Origin: Phaeobacter inhibens DSM 16374
Lineage (GTDB): Bacteria; Pseudomonadota; Alphaproteobacteria; Rhodobacterales; Rhodobacteraceae
DNA: 64,000 nucleotides
Direction of reading: 5' to 3'
NCBI RefSeq assembly: GCF_000473105.1
Contig: NZ_KI421498.1
Location: forward strand, 496,001-560,000
The notes below the pieces were generated by a model that ran no database searches, was not told the origin of the DNA, and was given only the letters and a program-made list of their open reading frames with translations. Made by a program: the position numbers and the translations under genes. Position 1 is the stretch's first letter. Each line of letters starts with the position of its first letter. This document shows positions 1 to 8,918 of the stretch, piece by piece.

Positions 1-1159
1 CGCGTTCAATGGGTTTCGCCTGACCGTGGGCCGGGGTGGCCCAGTGCATGTCGATGCCGAGCAAGGGCAAAACACCGATTGGATCGTCTTCCCGGACTTT
101 GAAACGGAACCGGGTTGGCGCGCCTGCTGTCATCCATTTGTTGGCAAATTCGCGCCCGTTGTCGAACAGGCATCGTTTTGGAATGCCCCAGTTGTCGACC
201 AATTCACCGAATGCCGCCATCACCATGACTTTGTTCGGGTCGTGATCCACGCGCCAGGACAAAAACTTGCCGGAATAGAGGTCTTGAAACGCAACGATTT
301 GGGGGCGGTTGACGGTGCCGTCGGGCCATTCGACAAAGACGTCGATCTTGTGACAATCGGCGTTGACAGCTTCCAGCGCATGGAGGCTCGACCGGTCGCG
401 AGTTTGGGCGGGGTAGCAGCGCATCAGGCCATTAACGCCCTCGCGGAGATAGACTTGCGTTGTGCGTGGCACCTCGGCATCTACCCAGCGCTTTGCGGTC
501 TTCTCAATCGGGATGGGCCATCCCATCTGGCCCGCTTGGCGCTCGGCCATGCGGAAGCATTGCGCAAACGTTGGGCGTTCAGGACGCAGCCAGGCGCTCT
601 TGAGCCAATCCATAAACGGCTGATAGGCGGCACGATTTGCCTGTTGGGTGCGTTTCTTTGGCGCTTTGGGCGCGACGAATGCAAGCCGGTCCTCTGATGC
701 TGCACCGGCGACAAGGTCGATCCAGTTATAGATCGTCCGGGTACTGGACCCGATTTCTGCGGCGACAGTGTCGACGGCGTGGACATGGCCCGCACCGCTG
801 GTGTGAAGCAATTCAACCTTGGTGATCGCATCCAGGCGGCGCGCGGCCTCGTCTTTGGATTTCTGGGGCAGGGCTGCATAGGCGGCCCAGGCGCTGTTAC
901 GGTCGAGCTTTTTGACCGGGCGGCTGGCGTCATGCTTGATCAGCTTAGTACGTGCGGCCAGCGGCAGCACAGACCAATGATAGAGCAAACCACCACCGCG
1001 ACCGACCTTGCGTTTGATCGCACCGGACACGTCCCGCCAGCCTTCACGGTCGGCTTTTGCAGTCACCCCCCGTGCAGTGCCAGGAATGCCGGGCAGGCGG
1101 GCCGCAGCCAGCTCAGCCACAGACCACCATTCCTGTTTGGGCGAGACGGGCGTTGTCAT
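1..1159 (-). CDS. Mu-like phage transposase A (MuA), C-terminus beyond window
   Basis: This is a DDE recombinase that would catalyse replicative transposition of a Mu-like phage. The reading frame is open from ATG 1159 to the left edge (386 codons seen). The N-terminus (about residues 1-70) resembles the winged-helix end-binding domain of MuA, beginning MTTPVSPKQEWWSVAELAAA. The catalytic core shows the first Asp in NADCHKID, the second in FDNGREFANKW (compare DNTRGAANKW in Mu) and the region of the third residue in AKPIER, where the window ends. The start overlaps the stop of the ParB-like gene as ATGA, so the two are probably translated together. The true length cannot be seen; the family is about 650-700 residues. 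A Mu-family relationship is clear from the core motifs; activity is not shown. Confidence 0.88.
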   Translation of the reverse strand, partial: MTTPVSPKQEWWSVAELAAARLPGIPGTARGVTAKADREGWRDVSGAIKRKVGRGGGLLYHWSVLPLAARTKLIKHDASRPVKKLDRNSAWAAYAALPQKSKDEAARRLDAITKVELLHTSGAGHVHAVDTVAAEIGSSTRTIYNWIDLVAGAASEDRLAFVAPKAPKKRTQQANRAAYQPFMDWLKSAWLRPERPTFAQCFRMAERQAGQMGWPIPIEKTAKRWVDAEVPRTTQVYLREGVNGLMRCYPAQTRDRSSLHALEAVNADCHKIDVFVEWPDGTVNRPQIVAFQDLYSGKFLSWRVDHDPNKVMVMAAFGELVDNWGIPKRCLFDNGREFANKWMTAGAPTRFRFKVREDDPIGVLPLLGIDMHWATPAHGQAKPIER

Positions 1160-2004
1160 ACCTGTGCCCCGCCTTTGGTATCTTCGATCAACTCGACCAA
1201 GACGTCGCCATACTGCGCGACAAACTGGCGGCGCGCTTCTTTGCTGGCGCGGATGAACGCGTCTGCCAGCTTTGAAAACTGTTGCTCAACAGGTGTTTTG
1301 AGCGCGGCACCGGGGGCTTTTTTCCGGCCCAAAACCTCTTTAGCGGATTTGGCAGTCCCATCGCCTAAAGCAGCGCAGATGGCGGTCCTGTCCGCTTGTT
1401 CGCCGCATTTGGCGATGTGCTCTAAGTCTTTGAATTGGACCTTTTGCGGGGCGTCCCGGAGCTGGGCGATTTCACTAGGTGAGAGTTTTTCGCCGACGCT
1501 GATCAGGCGAAAAATCTGGCGTTCACCCTTGCCGAACACCTCGGCGGCGTTGGCGGCGAATGATCGTACTGACATTTTGTCAGTATGATCAGACAGGCGG
1601 GCTTGCCTCGCTTTGTGTGCTCTGGTCGCTTCGGGATTTTCGCGCTCGTATAGCTCTTTGTGTGCGGCCAGAAACACCGCCATATCCAGCGGCGTCAAAG
1701 GCGCGCCGGCCACATTGGCGTCCACCTCAATACGGATCGCCTGATCGTTGGTGCATTCGCTGACTTTGACCGGCACCTCGGCCAATCCTGCTTCTTTTGC
1801 GGCAGTTAAGCGATGCAGGCCATCCAGTAGGCGATAGCCGTCTTTGACCCGCCGGACCAAGAGTGGTTGCAGGATGCTGCCAACCTCTTGAATAGAGGAT
1901 ACAATGCTTGCAACCGCTGTTTCAGAGGCGGTGCGCAACCGTTCCTCTACCTGAATATCTTCCACGGGCAGGGTTTGGATTTGTTGCCAGACGGGTGGGG
2001 TCAT
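1156..2004 (-). CDS. ParB N-terminal domain protein of Mu-like phage
   Basis: About 282 residues. The N-terminal third carries a ParB/Sulfiredoxin-like domain: a PVEDIQVEERLR start, then QPLLVRR, YRLLDGLHRLTAAKEAG and a charged helix-rich C-terminal half. Related proteins occur just upstream of transposase A in Mu-like phages of Rhodobacteraceae, which fits the position here; their job is not established. ATG 2004 is chosen because GGAG lies about 8 bases upstream. The frame stays open to an earlier ATG at 2130, but that part overlaps the upstream gene and lacks a good ribosome binding site. The stop overlaps the transposase start by four bases. It could bind phage DNA or have a nuclease or CTPase role; neither is shown. 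Confidence 0.75.
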   Translation of the reverse strand: MTPPVWQQIQTLPVEDIQVEERLRTASETAVASIVSSIQEVGSILQPLLVRRVKDGYRLLDGLHRLTAAKEAGLAEVPVKVSECTNDQAIRIEVDANVAGAPLTPLDMAVFLAAHKELYERENPEATRAHKARQARLSDHTDKMSVRSFAANAAEVFGKGERQIFRLISVGEKLSPSEIAQLRDAPQKVQFKDLEHIAKCGEQADRTAICAALGDGTAKSAKEVLGRKKAPGAALKTPVEQQFSKLADAFIRASKEARRQFVAQYGDVLVELIEDTKGGAQV

Positions 2005-2111
2005 TGGGGATGCTCCATCGTAACTGAGGGTCGTATTTGTTGGCCTGCCGTTCTGTGCGACATGGCAGATGAGGTTGCGGCGCTTCACCTGGGCCGCATG
2101 GCCTGCGTGGG

Positions 2112-2699
2112 TCAGCGCGCCGGGCACCACGGACGCCCGCTTGTTTCGAGTTTCAGAAGGTCGGCGAGGCAGTCCAATGAACCGCGACCATTTAGGTGGG
2201 CGACAAGATCGGCGACGCGTTCTTGGGCCGCGCCAACCGCCTCAGCGGCGCTATCCACGGCGTCGGCCAAAGTACCGCAGTCACGGCTTCCAAGGGTTCG
2301 GGCCTCTTGATGGGCCGTAATCGCTTGTTGCAGTGCTGCCCGGCATCGCGCGTAGTTGGCGGCGTGTTTTGTCAGCTCACCCGCAAGCCGGTGCTGGGGG
2401 AATTGGATCAATTCAAAGTCAGTCGCGCTCATTGCAAAAGGCTCCAAAGCAGGGGGGGCGATGGGCAGGACGAAGACGCAAACAGCGCCAACAAGATCGC
2501 CCCAGAAGTCAGCGGGGGTGGGGAAATAGTATTTGAAACCATCGCGCAACCTTCGCCGCACGGCTGCTGGGGCGCGCTGAAAAGCCCCCAGCGGCGCATC
2601 CCCATGGCCGCTGGGGTAGTTACCCGACTTAGCGGCGAGGACATTGTCGCCGCAGGCTATCGGGAAAAGAACCTCAGGCGTTCTCATGTCGGCGCACAT
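2112..2699 (-). CDS. Hypothetical phage early protein with one predicted membrane segment
   Basis: Up to 195 residues, not recognised. Residues about 64-85 (around GDLVGAVCVFVLPI) are hydrophobic and could span the membrane once. The part after Met90 is an Ala-, Glu- and Leu-rich helical region, probably coiled coil. Two starts are possible. ATG 2699 overlaps the stop of the upstream HTH gene by 16 bases. ATG 2432 has GGAG nine bases upstream and would give a soluble helical protein of about 106 residues. The gene lies between the Ner-like gene and the ParB-like gene, so it belongs to the phage early operon. I cannot assign a function. Confidence 0.5.
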   Translation of the reverse strand: MCADMRTPEVLFPIACGDNVLAAKSGNYPSGHGDAPLGAFQRAPAAVRRRLRDGFKYYFPTPADFWGDLVGAVCVFVLPIAPPALEPFAMSATDFELIQFPQHRLAGELTKHAANYARCRAALQQAITAHQEARTLGSRDCGTLADAVDSAAEAVGAAQERVADLVAHLNGRGSLDCLADLLKLETSGRPWCPAR

Positions 2700-3052
2700 G
2701 CGCTCTCGGCGCTTAACGTAATGTCGTTTGCCGTGAGTTGCTTACGGGGGCGATTTGGACTGTGCAGTGCATCAATGTAACAATTTTTGCCTTGCAGGTG
2801 AGGAACAACATCTTCCTCAGGTCCATCGACCTCATAGCCCAAGGTGTAGAGCACCAGTCGTATGGTCAGGGTTGAAGGCGTACCTTGCTGCTCGGCAAGC
2901 TTGCGTAGCCACTTACCTGTCACACCACATGAGCGGCCCAGCTCGGCATAAGAGAGTTTTCCCAACCCACGGTTTGCGGCTGTAAACTCTCTGTTCAAGA
3001 GTTTGGCAAACTGTCGCCCGCTCATCTGTGAAATAATCGTGTTCGGCGTCAT
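2684..3052 (-). CDS. Ner-like HTH regulator of Mu-like phage
   Basis: 122 residues. A helix-turn-helix is suggested by LSYAELGRSCGVTGKWLRKL at about residues 32-51, followed by a second helical segment. It is the first gene of the leftward early operon (HTH, unknown, ParB-like, transposase). In Mu the equivalent place is held by Ner, the negative regulator of early transcription, which supports a similar role by position. ATG 3052 is preceded by a strong AGGAGG. The promoter region holds the GATAGAA palindrome at 3076-3095. The C-terminal 40 residues are basic and without a recognised domain. Assignment as Ner-like is inference from HTH and gene order. Confidence 0.62.
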   Translation of the reverse strand: MTPNTIISQMSGRQFAKLLNREFTAANRGLGKLSYAELGRSCGVTGKWLRKLAEQQGTPSTLTIRLVLYTLGYEVDGPEEDVVPHLQGKNCYIDALHSPNRPRKQLTANDITLSAESACAPT

Positions 3053-3075: not shown

Positions 3076-3095
3076 GATAGAACTAAACTTCTATC
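3076..3095. promoter_or_regulatory. Palindromic operator GATAGAA-N6-TTCTATC
   Basis: A perfect 7-6-7 inverted repeat lies 24 bases upstream of the leftward HTH gene. A third half-site GATAGAA is at 3119-3125. The placement fits an operator for one of the two divergent regulators. The palindrome is seen; the binding protein is inferred. Confidence 0.6.
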
Positions 3096-3171
3096 AACTC
3101 AACACAAGAAGTCGATTAGATAGAATTATAGGGCGATTTATTGTGGCCAGACGTACTCCAAGGGATTTATA

Positions 3172-3200
3172 TTCCCGATTGCGGGAACTATAATTCCCTG
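3172..3200. promoter_or_regulatory. Palindromic operator TTCCCG-N4-CGGGAA plus extra half-site
   Basis: A perfect 6-4-6 inverted repeat occupies 3172-3187, and a further TTCCC half-site is at 3194-3198, just ahead of the repressor start at 3213. Its sequence differs from the GATAGAA family, so the region probably holds operators for two different proteins, as in a lysis-lysogeny switch. Confidence 0.58.
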
Positions 3201-3212
3201 TATGATGCAATC

Positions 3213-3557
3213 ATGGTTGGACCGATTGATAGAAGCCAAGCGGTGAGTGGTGCCGACACTGAGATTTGGCGCAAACGCCTAAGACAGGCGTTGGATGACC
3301 GCGGCTTGGACTACGGAGAGGTCTCAGTAGCGGCGGGTAATAACGACGAGTACGTCAGCAAGATCCTGAATGGTCGCTTCAATCCAACGGTGGCAAGAAT
3401 TCTGAGAATCTGCGAAGTCGCAAATATAGAGATGGCCTATCTTTTTTCAGATAGCCCCTCCGCTGGCGAGCGCGAGGTTATATCAAAGTCGAGTGACCTT
3501 ACTGAGAGTGATGCCGACTTAGTCAGTCGGTTGGTCGCAAGCTCCCGATCTCTCTGA
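3213..3557 (+). CDS. XRE-family phage repressor-like protein
   Basis: 114 residues from ATG 3213. The HTH covers about residues 14-60 (WRKRLRQALDDRGLDYGEVS, then NDEYVSKILNGRFNPT), typical of XRE/Cro-CI regulators. There is no LexA-type peptidase domain: the C-terminus is a short Ser-, Asp- and Glu-rich tail. It is transcribed away from the phage early operon, as the c repressor of Mu is. The frame is open to an upstream ATG at 3141, but that extension would run through the operator palindrome at 3172-3187, so the later start is preferred. The probable role is maintenance of lysogeny by repressing the early promoter, by position. Confidence 0.7.
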   Translation: MVGPIDRSQAVSGADTEIWRKRLRQALDDRGLDYGEVSVAAGNNDEYVSKILNGRFNPTVARILRICEVANIEMAYLFSDSPSAGEREVISKSSDLTESDADLVSRLVASSRSL

Positions 3558-3680
3558 CAGAGCGGTTTCTATCGCGTCTCTAAACGCCTGTATTCCTTTT
3601 CCTGGCTTGGCCGCATTCTGCTCGGCTACGCGCTTAAGAATGAGTTCGAGGGTGCGAGCCGTTATTCCGTTGCTGTTCAT
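3519..3680 (-). CDS. Possible small protein of 53 residues
   Basis: A short open frame reads MNSNGITARTLELILKRVAE at the start, then a basic linker and another helix ending in ALSERSGACDQPTD. It has a balanced amino-acid make-up and amphipathic helices. A GGCGAG stretch lies a few bases upstream of the ATG. It converges with and overlaps the last 39 bases of the repressor gene. It is not recognised and could be a phage or host regulatory peptide; coding status rests on composition only. Confidence 0.4.
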   Translation of the reverse strand: MNSNGITARTLELILKRVAEQNAAKPGKGIQAFRDAIETALSERSGACDQPTD

Positions 3681-3702
3681 TGTCTCGCCTGGTCCAGAAA
3701 AG

Positions 3703-3734
3703 TATTACTTGTGATAATACCGTAATGCGGTATT
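3703..3734. promoter_or_regulatory. Inverted repeats upstream of the luxR-type gene
   Basis: AATACCG-TAATG-CGGTATT is a perfect 7-5-7 inverted repeat at 3716-3734, ending four bases before the luxR-type ATG. It overlaps TATTA-N7-TAATA at 3703-3719. At 19 bases the first is close in size to known lux boxes (about 18-20) and may be a binding site for the LuxR-type protein or another regulator. Binding is inferred. Confidence 0.5.
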
Positions 3735-3738
3735 AAGT

Positions 3739-4389
3739 ATGGTCATTACATATGTAGCGTGTGTGTCCAATATGATTAATGATATAATGAGGGTGCATTT
3801 GCGTACCCTGGAGGAGATTTCGGACAAAGGCTTCTCGCTCGGTGTTGGCTTCGACGGCGCAGAACCTGTGTTCATGAAGTCTACTTACTCAAGGGAGTGG
3901 ATCGATCACTATCTAGTGCAACGATATTTCGACCTAGACCCCACCATCCACTTTGGCAAATCTGCAACTGGCTTCACAACTTGGGGCGATCTGAGACGAC
4001 ATTACCCAACTTCCAACAAGTTTTTCGATGATGCGGCTCGTTTCGGCCTGGACTACGGTAATACACTGTCCATCCACGTCGATGGTCAGGTATCCATATT
4101 AAGTTGTTCAGGGTCGAAATGGGGAGATACGGAGCGTCGGTTGGCGAAAGCGGCGCTCTATTCGATCCATGCCGTCCACCATCGTGAGTCCTGCCGGTAT
4201 ACGATCAAAGAGAAGTCAAAAGATGTTATCAGACTGATGTGTACAGGATACCAGGACCGGGAAATTGCAGAGAGGCTAGGGGTCAAGCTTGAGACAGTTC
4301 GGCAACGACGGCAAACTGCGATGCAGGCGGTCGAAGCGACATCCACCGCTCAGCTTATATCACTTGTGATAAAATATGGCTTGATTTAG
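3739..4389 (+). CDS. LuxR-family quorum-sensing regulator
   Basis: 216 residues with the standard two-part layout. Residues about 20-140 form the autoinducer-binding domain, with STYSREWIDHYLVQRYFDLD matching the ligand-pocket motif W..hY....f...DP, followed by TTWGDL. Residues about 150-215 form the LuxR-type HTH (SKDVIRLMCTGYQDREIAER, then LGVKLETVRQRR). In this family an acyl-homoserine lactone controls DNA binding. The cognate synthase gene follows 61 bases downstream on the same strand. ATG 3739 is taken as start; Met12 and Met17 are alternatives and no strong ribosome binding site separates them. AT content is higher than in the core genes of this window, in line with horizontal transfer. 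Confidence 0.88.
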   Translation: MVITYVACVSNMINDIMRVHLRTLEEISDKGFSLGVGFDGAEPVFMKSTYSREWIDHYLVQRYFDLDPTIHFGKSATGFTTWGDLRRHYPTSNKFFDDAARFGLDYGNTLSIHVDGQVSILSCSGSKWGDTERRLAKAALYSIHAVHHRESCRYTIKEKSKDVIRLMCTGYQDREIAERLGVKLETVRQRRQTAMQAVEATSTAQLISLVIKYGLI

Positions 4390-4450
4390 CGCTTATCGAT
4401 TCACAAGATTGTCGACCGGATGAACATGGCGTTTCTATTAGGAGAGCGCC

Positions 4451-5158
4451 ATGAAGCTACATGTTTTTTCATTTGCACAGAGATCGAGTTATTCAGGGGT
4501 TCTAGAGGGTTTTTATGCCCTTAGGAAGCGCAAGCTGGTTGACGAGCTGGGTTGGGCGTTAGCGCACGACGGCGGGCTGGAGAGCGACCAGTATGACAGG
4601 CCGGGTGCTGTGTACTCTATTGTCACCAATGACGATTGTGTTGTCGCCGGTGCGCGGGCGTTGTCCTGTGGCGCAGCGTATGGCCATTGGACCTACATGT
4701 TGAAAGATGCAGCCGATGGGAAGCTGGAGGGTATTCCTGACGGGTTGATGGACGTTTACCCGACGGATCATTCCGCGTGGGAATGTACACGCTTTGTCAC
4801 CGACGACAGATTGGCGGAAAACTCTCCTTATAGCGTCGAAGCCAAGTTGGTTGTGGCTGGTTTGTGTCGGGGCGCACATTGGCTCGGGGCTACTAGGCTA
4901 CTGTCACTTTCGCCCCGAGCACTTGGCGTACTGCTTAAAAGGTTTGGATATAGGGTTCAAAGGCAGGCGAACCGCTACTTGTGCGAAGATGATCAGCGTG
5001 AGTACTGGGCATTTGTGATGGGCTGCGATCCTGCTGTGAATGAAAAGCTATTCCTCACGTATGCTACGCCCGCAGCGCTTGCCAATTCATCGGGGCGGCA
5101 TAATTCGCGTGTACAGCCTCTGACTCGTTGTCACCATGAGCGAGCCGATGTGGTCTAG
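4451..5158 (+). CDS. LuxI-family acyl-homoserine-lactone synthase
   Basis: 235 residues. LuxI enzymes join the acyl group of acyl-ACP to S-adenosylmethionine and release an acyl-homoserine lactone. Conserved positions are visible: Arg25 and Trp35 in LRKRKLVDELGW, Asp46 and Asp49 in ESDQYDRPGAVY, Arg69 in AGARAL, Glu111 and Arg114 in WECTRFV. The usual Phe at about 28 is Leu29 here. The acyl chain made cannot be predicted from sequence. The start has AGGAGAG upstream (4440-4446). A C-terminal tail of about 25 residues runs past the usual family end. It pairs with the upstream LuxR-type gene and lies next to phage control genes. Confidence 0.88.
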   Translation: MKLHVFSFAQRSSYSGVLEGFYALRKRKLVDELGWALAHDGGLESDQYDRPGAVYSIVTNDDCVVAGARALSCGAAYGHWTYMLKDAADGKLEGIPDGLMDVYPTDHSAWECTRFVTDDRLAENSPYSVEAKLVVAGLCRGAHWLGATRLLSLSPRALGVLLKRFGYRVQRQANRYLCEDDQREYWAFVMGCDPAVNEKLFLTYATPAALANSSGRHNSRVQPLTRCHHERADVV

Positions 5159-5469
5159 GTCGCGGCGAAAACTGCTCTCAGGTTCGGCGAAGCTGTCGCT
5201 GATCGAAAACTTGACATAATGGCGCTTATTATGAGGGGGGATGTGAAAGGCAGCCGCCAGCCCAAAGCGGAACTTGGACCAGGGCGCGATGCTGCACAGG
5301 TCCCTCGAAAGTGGAGCGGGAGAGCAGCCGTTCGTTGCGCGGAGCGCGAATGGCCGCTTGTGTTTCGATCCCCCTAAACGGCACACGCCAGATCACAGTC
5401 CGGGTGACACGATATGTGGACATGCCACAACAGATAGGTAAAAGTCTAGTCTAACTCACTAGACGGCGA
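5159..5469. other. Gene-free stretch with degenerate repeats
   Basis: No convincing gene is seen. The stretch contains the first copy of a 24-bp direct repeat (5208-5231) and, at about 5310-5365, GC-rich text (AGCAGCCGTTCGTTGCGCGG) of the kind found in degraded intergenic repeats of Roseobacter genomes. The promoter of the restriction-modification genes should lie near 5420-5465. Confidence 0.5.
5208..5231 (+). repeat. Direct repeat 1 flanking the restriction-modification cassette
   Basis: The sequence AACTTGACATAATGGCGCTT followed by ATTA matches AACTTAACATAAGTGCGCTT plus ATTG at 7847-7870 at 20 of 24 positions, in the same orientation. The second copy contains an ATAAG-N4-CTTAT dyad, which fits a recombinase crossover site. 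The role is inferred. Confidence 0.6.
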
Positions 5470-6111
5470 ATGATGGAAAACATGACGATTGAGCAAGAGA
5501 TACGCCGACTGGCGGATAAGTATGCCGACAACCTCAAAGCCAGAGTTGACGAACGGGTCGAGGAGATGGAGGCGGACGACAACAGCCACTACATGATCTA
5601 TAAGGTTTTAGGCATAACAAATGAAGAAGGCCGCCTTATCGACGTCTACCAAAATAAAGGCCGATTTCTGTATAAGTATGCTGGCTCATTCTTGGAAGAA
5701 GCCGCCAAAGCCTGCTTTCTTGAAAAGTTTCCCGAATCGGGTTCGGTCAAGATTCCTAACACTATAGGTCAACGTCCCAAAACATTTGAAATAGACTGTC
5801 TGGTAGAGGGACGGGATGCCATCGAAATTAAGTGGCGTGACGCTACAACTGACGGCGATCATATTACAAAAGAACACACCCGTATGCAAAACATCAAAGA
5901 CGCTGGCTACAAGCCAATTCGAGTGATGTTCTACTATCCCAACCGCACCCAAGCACAGCGCATCCAAAAGACGCTAGAAACGCTCTATGCTGGTGCAGAT
6001 GGCGAGTACCACTATGGCGATAACGCTTGGGAATATGTCGAGCAGTGCACCGGAATAGCCTTGAAGAGGATTCTAGAAGCCATAGCGACAGAGCGAACCA
6101 ATGGAAGTTAA
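5470..6111 (+). CDS. ApaLI-like type II restriction endonuclease
   Basis: 213 residues. The protein fits the RE_ApaLI family of type II endonucleases, which cut DNA at GTGCAC in the founding member. A PD-(D/E)xK active site is visible as Asp109 in FEIDCLVEG and Glu119-x-Lys121 in AIEIKWRDAT. The N-terminal helix (ADKYADNL) and the block YQNKGRFLYKYAGSFLEEAA are also family-like. The 3' end overlaps the methyltransferase gene by 11 bases, so the pair is co-translated. Cutting specificity in this strain is not known. Lower GC and codon use unlike the core genes suggest recent gain, and the pair is bracketed by direct repeats. ATG 5482 is an alternative start. Confidence 0.78.
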   Translation: MMENMTIEQEIRRLADKYADNLKARVDERVEEMEADDNSHYMIYKVLGITNEEGRLIDVYQNKGRFLYKYAGSFLEEAAKACFLEKFPESGSVKIPNTIGQRPKTFEIDCLVEGRDAIEIKWRDATTDGDHITKEHTRMQNIKDAGYKPIRVMFYYPNRTQAQRIQKTLETLYAGADGEYHYGDNAWEYVEQCTGIALKRILEAIATERTNGS

Positions 6112-7312
6112 AGCCAAAACATATACAGGCGACTGTCTAGATCTCTTGCTTGACATGCCTCGTGAGTCTGTCGATTTAATTTATGTCGATCCGCCTTTCT
6201 TCACCCAGAAAGTGCATAACTTGGCAACAAGAGACGGCTCACATTCATTCAGCTTCCGCGATATTTGGGACAATGATAACTCATATGCGGACTTCGTATA
6301 TCAGCGTGTCGCCAGAATGCGCGACGTTCTAAGGGGATCTGGAAGCATCTTCTTCCATTGTGACAAGTCTGCCTCTCACATTGTTCGGTTGATGCTGGAT
6401 AGCGTATTCTCACCAGAAAATTTCAGGTCAGAGATAATCTGGTACTATAAGCGATGGTCTAACTCAAAAAAGGGTCTTCTCCCAGCGCACCAAACAATAT
6501 TTTTCTATTCCAAGACGCCTGACTTCAAGTTCAAGACAGCCTTTCAGGAGTATTCACCCTCCACCAACATAGATCAGATCATGCAAAAGCGCGCTCGTGA
6601 TGAGCGAAACAAATCTGTTTATGCGCGAAGCGATGACGGGGCAATAATTGGAAGCGGAAACAAGAAGGGTGTTCCACTCTCGGACGTTTGGGAAATTCCG
6701 TTTTTAAATCCAAAAGCCAAAGAGCGCGTTGGATATCCGACGCAGAAACCCGTGCTACTTCTAAATCAGATCATAAAACTTACAACGGACGAGGGCGACG
6801 TTGTACTTGATCCATTTTGCGGAAGCGGCACGACCCTTGTTGCAGCTCAACTTCTAAAACGAAATTCGATAGGCATCGACATTTCCAGTGAAGCTATCGA
6901 GTTGACAAAAGACAGGCTCAAAAACCCTGTTGTCACAAGCTCAGCGCTTCTTGCGAAGGGCGCTGACTCCTATCGTCAACATGACGCGGATGCATCAAAG
7001 CATCTCGTCGGTATCGACTATCTACCTGTACACCGAAACAAGGGCATAGACGGTTTGCTCAAGCAGGAGCTAAATGGCCTCCCTACGTTTGTCCGCGTCC
7101 AGCGAGATTGCGAAACCCTTCACGAGACAATAGCTGCAATACAAAAAGCGGCGAAGAACAAAGGCGCTTGCAGCTTGGTTGTCATCGCAACCAACAGCGA
7201 TCTGTTAGGTAATAGCTCAAGTTCTGACGTGCTGGTAATACCCTCAACTGCGTTGTCTCTCTCTGGGCATTTGACCGCCAGCAAAAAGCGAAATGCAGCA
7301 CTGACAGGATAG
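6101..7312 (+). CDS. Beta-class DNA amino-methyltransferase with C-terminal extension
   Basis: 403 residues. The enzyme would methylate adenine N6 or cytosine N4 and protect host DNA from the adjacent endonuclease. Motif IV is DPPF at residues 30-33. Motif I is DPFCGSGTT from residue 237, near the C-terminal side, so the order is that of beta-class enzymes with the target-recognition part between them. The segment after about residue 290 is not part of the catalytic fold. It contains GIDGLL (about 317) and later FVRVQRD, which recalls the core pattern of Mrr-like nuclease domains, although the lysine expected in (D/E/Q)xK is Arg here. ApaLI itself is paired with a C5-cytosine methylase, so this pairing differs. 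Confidence 0.85.
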   Translation: MEVKAKTYTGDCLDLLLDMPRESVDLIYVDPPFFTQKVHNLATRDGSHSFSFRDIWDNDNSYADFVYQRVARMRDVLRGSGSIFFHCDKSASHIVRLMLDSVFSPENFRSEIIWYYKRWSNSKKGLLPAHQTIFFYSKTPDFKFKTAFQEYSPSTNIDQIMQKRARDERNKSVYARSDDGAIIGSGNKKGVPLSDVWEIPFLNPKAKERVGYPTQKPVLLLNQIIKLTTDEGDVVLDPFCGSGTTLVAAQLLKRNSIGIDISSEAIELTKDRLKNPVVTSSALLAKGADSYRQHDADASKHLVGIDYLPVHRNKGIDGLLKQELNGLPTFVRVQRDCETLHETIAAIQKAAKNKGACSLVVIATNSDLLGNSSSSDVLVIPSTALSLSGHLTASKKRNAALTG

Positions 7313-7610
7313 ACGTTGCGCCAGTCAACTAGTCGGCCAAGCGCTGCGCCCTTTTCTAGGTCGTGATCCTGACGGCTTTGTGGCTGCGTCCCTTCTTCCA
7401 ATTCGAATCTCTGAACCTTGATGATGGCCTCCCGCAAGCGATGGTGGTAGCGCCGGAGCATTGCGTGCTCTTGGATTGAATGGCCAACCTCCGTTAATCT
7501 CGCGATGTTTTGGATCGAATGGGCTCACTGGTGTCGAAGCCGACGTCCGCCGGAACGCAGTGCACAGGCCGCTATGGGCCGTCCGGTCGATCCCGAACGC
7601 CTTGTGGCCC

Positions 7611-7652
7611 CGACTTTGCAAAGGTCACTAACTGCGCAGTACTGACGTTGGG
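7611..7652. repeat. Dispersed degenerate intergenic repeat, copy 1
   Basis: GACTTTGCAAAGGTC followed by a diverged tail matches 15573-15613. The shared 15-base core is identical and the rest is about 60 percent alike. It resembles non-coding remnants seen between genes in Roseobacter genomes; function unknown. Confidence 0.45.
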
Positions 7653-7846
7653 GGCTACAAAACTGCACTTACGAAGAACTTCGGCGAAGTGTGCAAGTCT
7701 GTCAAAATCAGTTCCAAGTTAAGGGCGATGGATAAGATAGTCGTATTCGGTTATCTGTTTGATTTTATGTCACTAATCTCGTTCTCGGAACTGACCCTTC
7801 CGATAGCGCGCTAATTCCAAGTTCGGTGGACCACATGGCGGTTAGG

Positions 7847-7870
7847 AACTTAACATAAGTGCGCTTATTG
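7847..7870 (+). repeat. Direct repeat 2 flanking the restriction-modification cassette
   Basis: Second copy of the 24-base repeat, same orientation as 5208-5231. It includes the dyad ATAAG-TGCG-CTTAT. Together the copies bound a segment of about 2.64 kb that holds the endonuclease and methyltransferase genes plus about 530 bases of gene-free DNA. Confidence 0.6.
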
Positions 7871-8181
7871 GGTTCTTGCGGCGCTGCTGTGGTGGCGCCG
7901 CTTTGGCTGGGGGGCTGTGCCCTCTCAGCCTTATAATAATGGCCAGCAGGGCAGGCGGGCGCAGTCGTGTAAGGCAGCGGGGACTTGGGCGGGACCGAGG
8001 CGGGCAGCCCCGGATAATTTGAAACTTGAACTGTCTCAGTTTTCGTCACCGGCCCAATATTCTCCCCATTTTCGAGTTGTGCAAGACAAGCGCCATTTTG
8101 GGCCGTGTCCTTGAAGCCTGCTTGAAAACCCAATTTTTTATGGCTCATCCGGGTTTGTCCGGCTTCTCCCGGCTTCTTCCG

Positions 8182-8381
8182 GTTACTGCAATATAAAGTG
8201 TCTCCTAACAGTAGCTGTAGCGGGACACTTCCGTTTGCAAACTCGGACACTTCAAGTTGCAGCAACTCATTTTCATGATTTCCCTGCTTTTTAGGCCAAA
8301 TCCCGGTGCCCAGCCAGCTCCGAGAGCTTCGGCTTCCCCGATCCGGCGCTGCGGTTTTGGGACACTTCCCATTGCAAACTT
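8182..8381. repeat. Cluster of four GACACTT-N4-TTGCA repeats
   Basis: Copies with GACACTT, four variable bases and TTGCA, then AAC, start at 8224, 8246 and 8361 on the plus strand; one inverted copy ends at 8202. Each unit is about 22 bases. Spaced repeats of this size are typical of transposase-binding ends of IS21, Tn7 or Mu-type elements, so this may be the remaining end of such an element. No transposase gene is adjacent. Confidence 0.55.
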
Positions 8382-8918
8382 GAACGTTCGCCGCCCAAAC
8401 CGTTAAAGAACGGCGGGGCGGCAGAGAGTTTTAAAGGGCGTTAAAAGGGTCATCTAAAGAGCTGGAACGCTGGAACCGAACCGACACAGCGATTGCGGAC
8501 CATGTTGGCAGTGACCCAGAAGGCAACAACGCGGACAATGCGGTCACTCGCCTTTTTGAGGGCAAGGAACGCAGGCAGCCCAATCACGACATTCGCACGA
8601 GGCCTGCGACGCCCTCGCTGCAGACGCGAAGGATCCCGCCAGACTTCCCGAGAGCGGACCTTCAGGCTAGCTCAGCTGGCCAGGTCGATGCTGCACCCCG
8701 CTCGAAGGTTAGAGATGCGCAGGTTGCGGACTTCGCAAAGCCGGAGCGGCTAGCCAGGCCCGAAGACGTGACCGGCCCAGAGCCGACATCCAGCGGCGAA
8801 CTCGGATGCTGCGCTCGCAGCCCGCATTGCTGACATTCGAGTGCTTGCACCCTGCAAGCATCAAGTATTTAAGCTCGACTGGTTCGCAACAGTCTACTTT
8901 GAGCATGGGAGACGCAAA

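Follow-up and report, generated by a model that had tools for sequence, protein, structure and literature searches.

A LuxR-LuxI quorum-sensing pair inside a Mu-like prophage of Phaeobacter inhibens: mapped phage ends, conserved gene order and variable putative defence cargo

Introduction

The window analysed here is a stretch of 64,000 nucleotides of Phaeobacter inhibens DSM 16374 (contig NZ_KI421498.1, called C6 below, positions 496,001 to 560,000), and it carries the genes for a LuxR-type receptor and a LuxI-type acyl-homoserine lactone (AHL) synthase, together luxRI, beside control genes of a Mu-like phage. The question raised by this locus is whether the quorum-sensing (QS) pair is part of the phage or a host locus next to which the phage inserted and, if the former, what the pair might do there. 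The presence of a quorum pair in this prophage is already known. A paper of 2013 places QS system II, Inhi_0506/Inhi_0507, in Mu-like prophage 2 of strain T5T, its function being then unknown (PMC4062626), and a preprint of July 2026 reports a role in lysogeny for the corresponding module of a prophage that it calls Phage A (PMC13345283). The present analysis adds the phage ends, operator-like dyads, the finding that defence systems next to luxI vary between phages, and the abutting ends of related elements. Taken with the role reported by the preprint, the results point to luxRI as the module for lysogeny in a Mu-like prophage of P. inhibens T5T, 40,070 bp long, that corresponds to Phage A, a reading to which a probability of about 0.95 is assigned.

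Results

The prophage extends from C6:464141 to window position 8210 (C6:504210), a length of 40,070 bp, with TG...CA ends and the pentamer GTAGC flanking both. Its attL terminus, TGTTAGGAGACACTTTATATTGCA, located by end-motif matches, occupies 8187-8210 on the minus strand and is followed by the 5-bp target duplication GTAGC at 8211-8215, read directly from the sequence, whose partner (C6:464136-464140) stands before attR at C6:464141. Because this end maps at 8210, about 3 kb past luxI, luxRI lies inside the Mu-like prophage. The original prediction had allowed for a pair either inside or beside the phage and had named an end between 3557 and 3739 as the sign of the latter; the end lies at 8210 instead, and the inside form is borne out. 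The TG...CA ends and 5-bp duplication that it proposed to look for were found, and the rest of the phage lies to the left of the window, where the MuA/MuB side continues, as it had expected.

The termini of this phage family are marked by a repeated motif, TGTNNNGRGACACTTNNNNTTGCA. In the 4.13-Mb genome it occurs four times when up to one mismatch is tolerated, and every occurrence is at this locus: three exact copies, at C6:464141 (plus strand), C6:504210 (minus) and C6:504216 (plus), and a copy at 504353 that differs in one position. The reversed pattern was absent from the same genome, and twenty random 110-kb sequences that preserved the neighbour frequencies yielded no match even at a looser score. 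Across 394 genomes of the family the motif was matched in 14 and the control gave five matches, so that an isolated hit with one mismatch in a distant genome may be fortuitous. Neither a tRNA or tmRNA nor an Rfam family was found at the insertion site.

The duplication is abutted on its outer side by an R-type end of an older related element (8216-8459, plus strand), which is outside the prophage and of which 50 bp are identical to attR. The two sides of the prophage therefore share 55 bp, and the register of the ends rests on the TG...CA rule. This 55-bp direct repeat (C6:464136-464190 and window 8211-8265) was considered as a site-specific attachment site and rejected, as it consists of the 5-bp duplication plus 50 bp common to two attR-type ends. 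Window 7658 (reverse strand TGTAGCCCCC) was likewise considered as the phage end and dropped, there being no duplication in common with attR and no GGGACACTT core. The attL-side end region (7608-8210) is common to other end-bearing loci of the genus, namely in G005 (96% identity over 7608-8265), G002 (85% over 7610-8210) and G004, where it is split (86% over 7612-7873 and 77% over 8009-8212). Further out, a stretch of about 170 bp (8569-8744) recurs with 91-98% identity on many Phaeobacter plasmids and elsewhere in the genome, most of the matches listed having no annotated feature.

Six other genomes of the genus were compared at this site. Window positions 3500-7600 have no match in any of the six, whose LuxI hits all map elsewhere. 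The insertion site is readable in five; the left flank is shared to approximately C6:464080 by G001-G004 and further by G005, and G006 matches only the earlier part, its contig breaking off before the site. In G005 the left flank is joined to a single R-type end with a downstream context as in window 8266-8459, so that the sequence of 8216-8459 adjoins the left flank there with no 40-kb phage. The pair is thus absent from this site in all five genomes in which the site could be read.

These results bear on the alternative that luxRI is chromosomal and the phage inserted beside a host quorum locus. Chromosomal LuxI types do exist in the family, and five loci (L198-L202) have relatives of xre-luxR-luxI, where xre is the regulator gene preceding luxR, with no match, within the DNA covered, to MuA, MuB, ParB or the small divergent regulator Hth (L199 is only 3.1 kb long). 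However, a weak match to a 195-residue phage protein lies beside each of these five loci, which are perhaps orphan modules of decayed prophages. The phage terminus 3 kb past luxI, the luxRI-region DNA without a match in the six other genomes, and the position of the module behind the regulator in three other phages of Mu type speak against a host locus, which is considered highly improbable. The five loci come from four Leisingera contigs and a Rhodobacteraceae metagenome-assembled genome, and their LuxI proteins are 57-60% identical to that of the window.

The original prediction of a LuxR-LuxI pair beside Mu-like control genes is supported by Pfam domains as well as by gene order. LuxR (3739-4389, plus strand) is an AHL receptor/regulator that matches Autoind_bind (PF03472; 53.8 bits against a cut-off of 23) and, in the PDB, TraR (E 8.1e-10), the alignment to TraR reaching residue 215 of 216; relatives suggest a start at ATG 3775. 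In its C-terminal helix-turn-helix (HTH) the GerE match, at 22.5 bits, falls just below the cut-off of 23.5, and almost the same residues match Sigma70_r4 with 25.3 bits, above its cut-off of 24.1. The AHL synthase LuxI (4451-5158, plus strand) matches Autoind_synth (PF00765; 35.7 bits against a cut-off of 24), phrog_31881 (E 6.6e-18) and the PDB AHL synthase 3p2f (E 3.8e-16, profile A3). Residues R25, W35, D46, D49, R69, E111 and R114 are invariant across five relatives, and these R, W, D, D, R, E and R residues are presumably the catalytic ones.

The genes xre (3213-3557), luxR and luxI share the plus strand, and the small HTH gene hth (2684-3052), parB, muA and muB are divergent, on the minus strand. 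Between the xre stop and the luxR start there are 181 bases with no open reading frame of at least 60 residues, which agrees with the predicted gap of about 180 bases without an intervening host gene. Xre is an HTH_3 regulator (Pfam 28.8 bits against a cut-off of 23) and has general HTH matches only in Pfam, PHROG and NCBIfam; its longest open reading frame is 3141-3557 (TTG 3141), and ATG 3213 is the start that aligns across related phages. Hth has no match in these three collections, and homologues that are 45-97% identical occupy the same place in G205, G309, L119 and L124. Neither protein was recognisable in them as a c or Ner repressor of Mu, and the preprint likewise describes Phage A as without recognisable c/Ner repressors (PMC13345283). 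The phage is classed as Mu-like by its transposition genes and ends, not by its repressors.

Towards the left edge, hth is followed by a 195-residue protein without a family match (2112-2699, minus strand) that is kept in several relatives, its homologues adjoining ParB in L119-L125. Next comes the ParB-like protein (1156-2130, minus strand; ParB_N 44.6 bits, phrog_3264 E 9.6e-56), which sits between MuA and the regulators. The C-terminal part of the MuA transposase occupies 1-1159 on the minus strand, and its open reading frame extends left to C6:495021. The whole 712-residue protein matches DDE_2 (171 bits), HTH_Tnp_Mu_1/2, the Mu I-gamma HTH and Mu-transpos_C in Pfam, and a MuB-like AAA_22/TniB protein adjoins it.

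G309 and G205 harbour Mu-like phages in which the genes follow this same order, ParB-hth-xre-luxR-luxI; their MuA proteins are 66% and 53% identical to that of the window, their LuxI 50% and 47% and their LuxR 51% and 44%. The IMG/VR record L124 has the order hth-xre-luxR-luxI, with LuxI 60% and LuxR 70% identical. An attL-type end also lies beyond luxI in G309 and L124; in the G205 phage the end motif was not found. Near-identical IMG/VR phages (MuA 96-97%) cover the locus in part, L119 stopping at window 3680, L127 starting inside MuA, and L120 diverging at window 2616, its last 797 bases having no match to hth, xre or lux. Another record, L122, has related Mu genes together with LuxR and LuxI proteins that match best, though weakly (28-29%), those of a second module type of the present genome. 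LuxI was detectable in two of the 21 viral-contig loci found through MuA (L122 and L124), several of these records ending before that point.

Searches that started from LuxI placed the module in a wider setting. A single sequence found no locus and a profile one among the viral contigs; for the collection of genome contigs the numbers were none and nine, and the phage collection gave two LuxI records, both of them an Acinetobacter record of about 128 kb. At E 1e-16 there are 115 LuxI places in 102 of the 394 family genomes, two of them in the present genome. From the other 113, 40 regions were examined (the top ranks, less one that was passed over and plus a hit from further down). Two of these, in G205 and G309, have MuA, MuB, ParB, hth and xre; one matches luxR-luxI only (L079, in G345) and one luxI only (L118). 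The remaining 36 have no match to the phage queries, and 35 of them have two divergent luxR genes, L097 being cut by the contig start. The loci L082-L117 carry a separate LuxI type, approximately 34-44% identical to the LuxI of the window or of the second module (L047), with no phage-query match.

Beside luxI, and inside the phage ends, lies an ApaLI-like restriction-modification (R-M) pair, a putative defence cargo. It comprises the restriction endonuclease (5470-6111, plus strand; RE_ApaLI 321 bits, PADLOC REase_II E 9.3e-102) and the DNA methyltransferase (6101-7312, plus strand; N6_N4_Mtase 184 bits, PADLOC MTase_II E 4.1e-155). The content of this slot varies: the R-M pair (5470-7312) in the window, AriA/AriB (PARIS) in L124 (L124:3126-5593), and, behind luxI in G205, a SIR2 protein resembling Dsr1 (Dsr1 system at L080:11546-15151), which may lie outside that phage, as its end was not located. 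In G309 the neighbour of luxI is a 486-residue protein without a family assignment, so that three of the four phages examined have a PADLOC hit in the slot. The mapped ends show that the QS module and the putative defence cargo travel together. At the other phage end (L003:14559-16660, that is C6:464559-466660) there is a pair made up of a 418-residue protein and a DUF5131 protein that matches the PADLOC PDC-M30/M41 candidates, and three near-identical IMG/VR phages have a different sequence in its place.

Two groups of inverted repeats lie between the divergent regulators. A dyad near the hth start (GATAGAACTAAACTTCTATC, 3076-3095), found by an inverted-repeat scan and alignment, has the form TAGAA-N6-TTCTA; it stands out in the window and L119, is less distinct in L081 and L080 and is missing from L124. 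Directly before xre, alignment reveals overlapping GGGA..TCCC dyads (3162-3198), a candidate XRE/LuxR operator. The half-sites before xre have a common spacing in the window, L119, L081, L124 and L080, with mismatches in the last two, and the dyads called there by script vary from phage to phage. These dyads are candidate operators only.

The R-type end outside attL has counterparts elsewhere. Fourteen sources were scanned for attL-type ends and 13 gave one, G192 giving none. In six of the 13 the R-type end of a relative lies 4-17 bp outside, facing away and always head to tail, the distances being 5 bp in the present genome, 4 bp in G309 and 5, 14, 14 and 17 bp in G005; the four cases from G005 come from one genome and are not independent. 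On visual inspection the attL ends of L124 and G332 seem to sit at or within disrupted arrays of R-type ends, and five (two in G002 and one each in G004, G006 and G345) have no neighbouring R-type end. The abutting ends are at window 8211-8265, G309:C38:712-763, G005:C1:1790337-1792444 and 2058335-2058396, and G005:C3:29513-29565. Three stretches in G005 (C1:1790375-1792403, 1792421-1803028 and 2058373-2065378; 2.0, 10.6 and 7.0 kb) are bounded by attL- and attR-type ends and have no MuA/MuB match; they are candidate remnants or satellites, and the 7.0-kb stretch alone is bordered by the same five bases (GCGGG) on both sides.

Discussion

The divergent hth facing xre-luxR-luxI inside the prophage matches, in gene order and ends, the arrangement of the preprint's module, in which hth would correspond to PLysis. 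In the mechanism proposed, luxI would make long-chain AHLs; LuxR and Xre, together with AHL, would activate the xre-luxR-luxI promoter and so keep the phage dormant, the divergent hth would represent the lytic side, and a host signal exceeding that of the phage would lead to repression through the host receptor PgaR and hence to lysis. The AHL structures, promoter activation and induction were shown by the preprint; the gene order, domains, boundaries, absence from readable empty sites and conserved synteny were observed here. According to its text the Phage A AHLs are 3OH-C12:1(5Z)-HSL and C12:1(5Z)-HSL, the lysogeny promoter requires xre, luxR and luxI and is activated in an AHL-dependent manner, and host signal acting through PgaR represses this promoter and induces lysis (PMC13345283). 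Production and sensing of an AHL by the phage itself make this a strong example of quorum sensing put to use by a virus for the choice between dormancy and lysis, one that has already been described for this prophage.

Two expectations of the original prediction need revision in the light of the same preprint. Host density alone would not set lysogeny, since the signal made by lysogens is weighed against that of the host and so reflects how many cells are infected relative to those that are not. Among Roseobacter prophages, moreover, phage-carried quorum systems are common: such modules are described as exchanged among them and occur in 53 of the 93 prophages of its set, which was partly assembled by searching around luxI (PMC13345283).

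That luxRI is instead mere cargo without a part in lysogeny, as idle as the R-M pair in the same slot, might be suggested by its place on the cargo side of the regulator and by its GC content (luxR 49% and luxI 54% against 58% for the phage as a whole), but this is scarcely credible given that luxRI stays behind xre in the four phages compared while the adjoining cargo changes, and that the lysogeny promoter of Phage A is reported to depend on luxR, luxI and xre alike and host signal to induce the phage (PMC13345283).

Several points weigh against equating the locus with Phage A and against the boundaries given here. The equation, which is a probable one, rests on the match of host genome, Mu family and gene order, and the two phage LuxI proteins of this genome align at 33% identity. 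The 2013 paper gives about 48 kb for prophage 2, against 40.07 kb here, and reports orthologues of the QS pair in DSM 24588, in which it detected no prophage (PMC4062626); a degraded remnant would explain these orthologues. Finally, the flanks of the G309 phage, AGTCT and GTCTG, agree only with a one-base shift.

The abutting ends could arise if the phages favour sites next to relatives, if ends recombine with each other or if the elements have a hotspot in common. It is tentatively proposed, as a possibility that is on balance doubtful, that this family inserts preferentially beside the right ends of resident relatives, head to tail, and that this habit, together with the QS module and the swappable defence slot, would yield stacked, cross-talking prophages and remnants. 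If true, insertion beside relatives would run counter to Mu target immunity; 0.4% of the insertions of a Pseudomonas transposable phage are reported to escape such immunity (PMC5977238). No description of the abutting-end pattern was found in the literature searched.

Among known systems, the Roseobacter-clade transposable phage vB_PeaS-P1 of Pelagibaca resembles this phage in having MuB, MuA and ParB in the same order, with MuA-region DNA 73% identical over about 420 bases, but differs in that its record has no LuxI or LuxR match at E 1e-3; the main text of its description does not contain the words quorum, luxI or luxR (PMC5488378). The second module of the present genome (L047, C6:1864482-1866691), that of Phage B, which both papers assign to a different prophage, has the same order of HTH, luxR and luxI genes (C6:1864912-1866691) with a divergent HTH gene upstream. 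Its LuxI and LuxR are, however, only 33% and 24% identical to those of the window, and its neighbours, as judged by eye, are not Mu-like, the prophage being called myovirus-like in the preprint. Attachment sites can be recognised in Phage B, in contrast to Phage A, and it was for Phage B that excision was followed (PMC13345283); that Phage A lacks such sites is as expected if it transposes. With Phage A itself the window module shares the host genome, the Mu family, the order and orientation of the four genes and a genome with three LuxI systems, and no difference in kind was found between them. The main text of the preprint does not use the terms restriction, defense, methyltransferase or cargo (PMC13345283), and the exact ends mapped here should be useful for work on Phage A.

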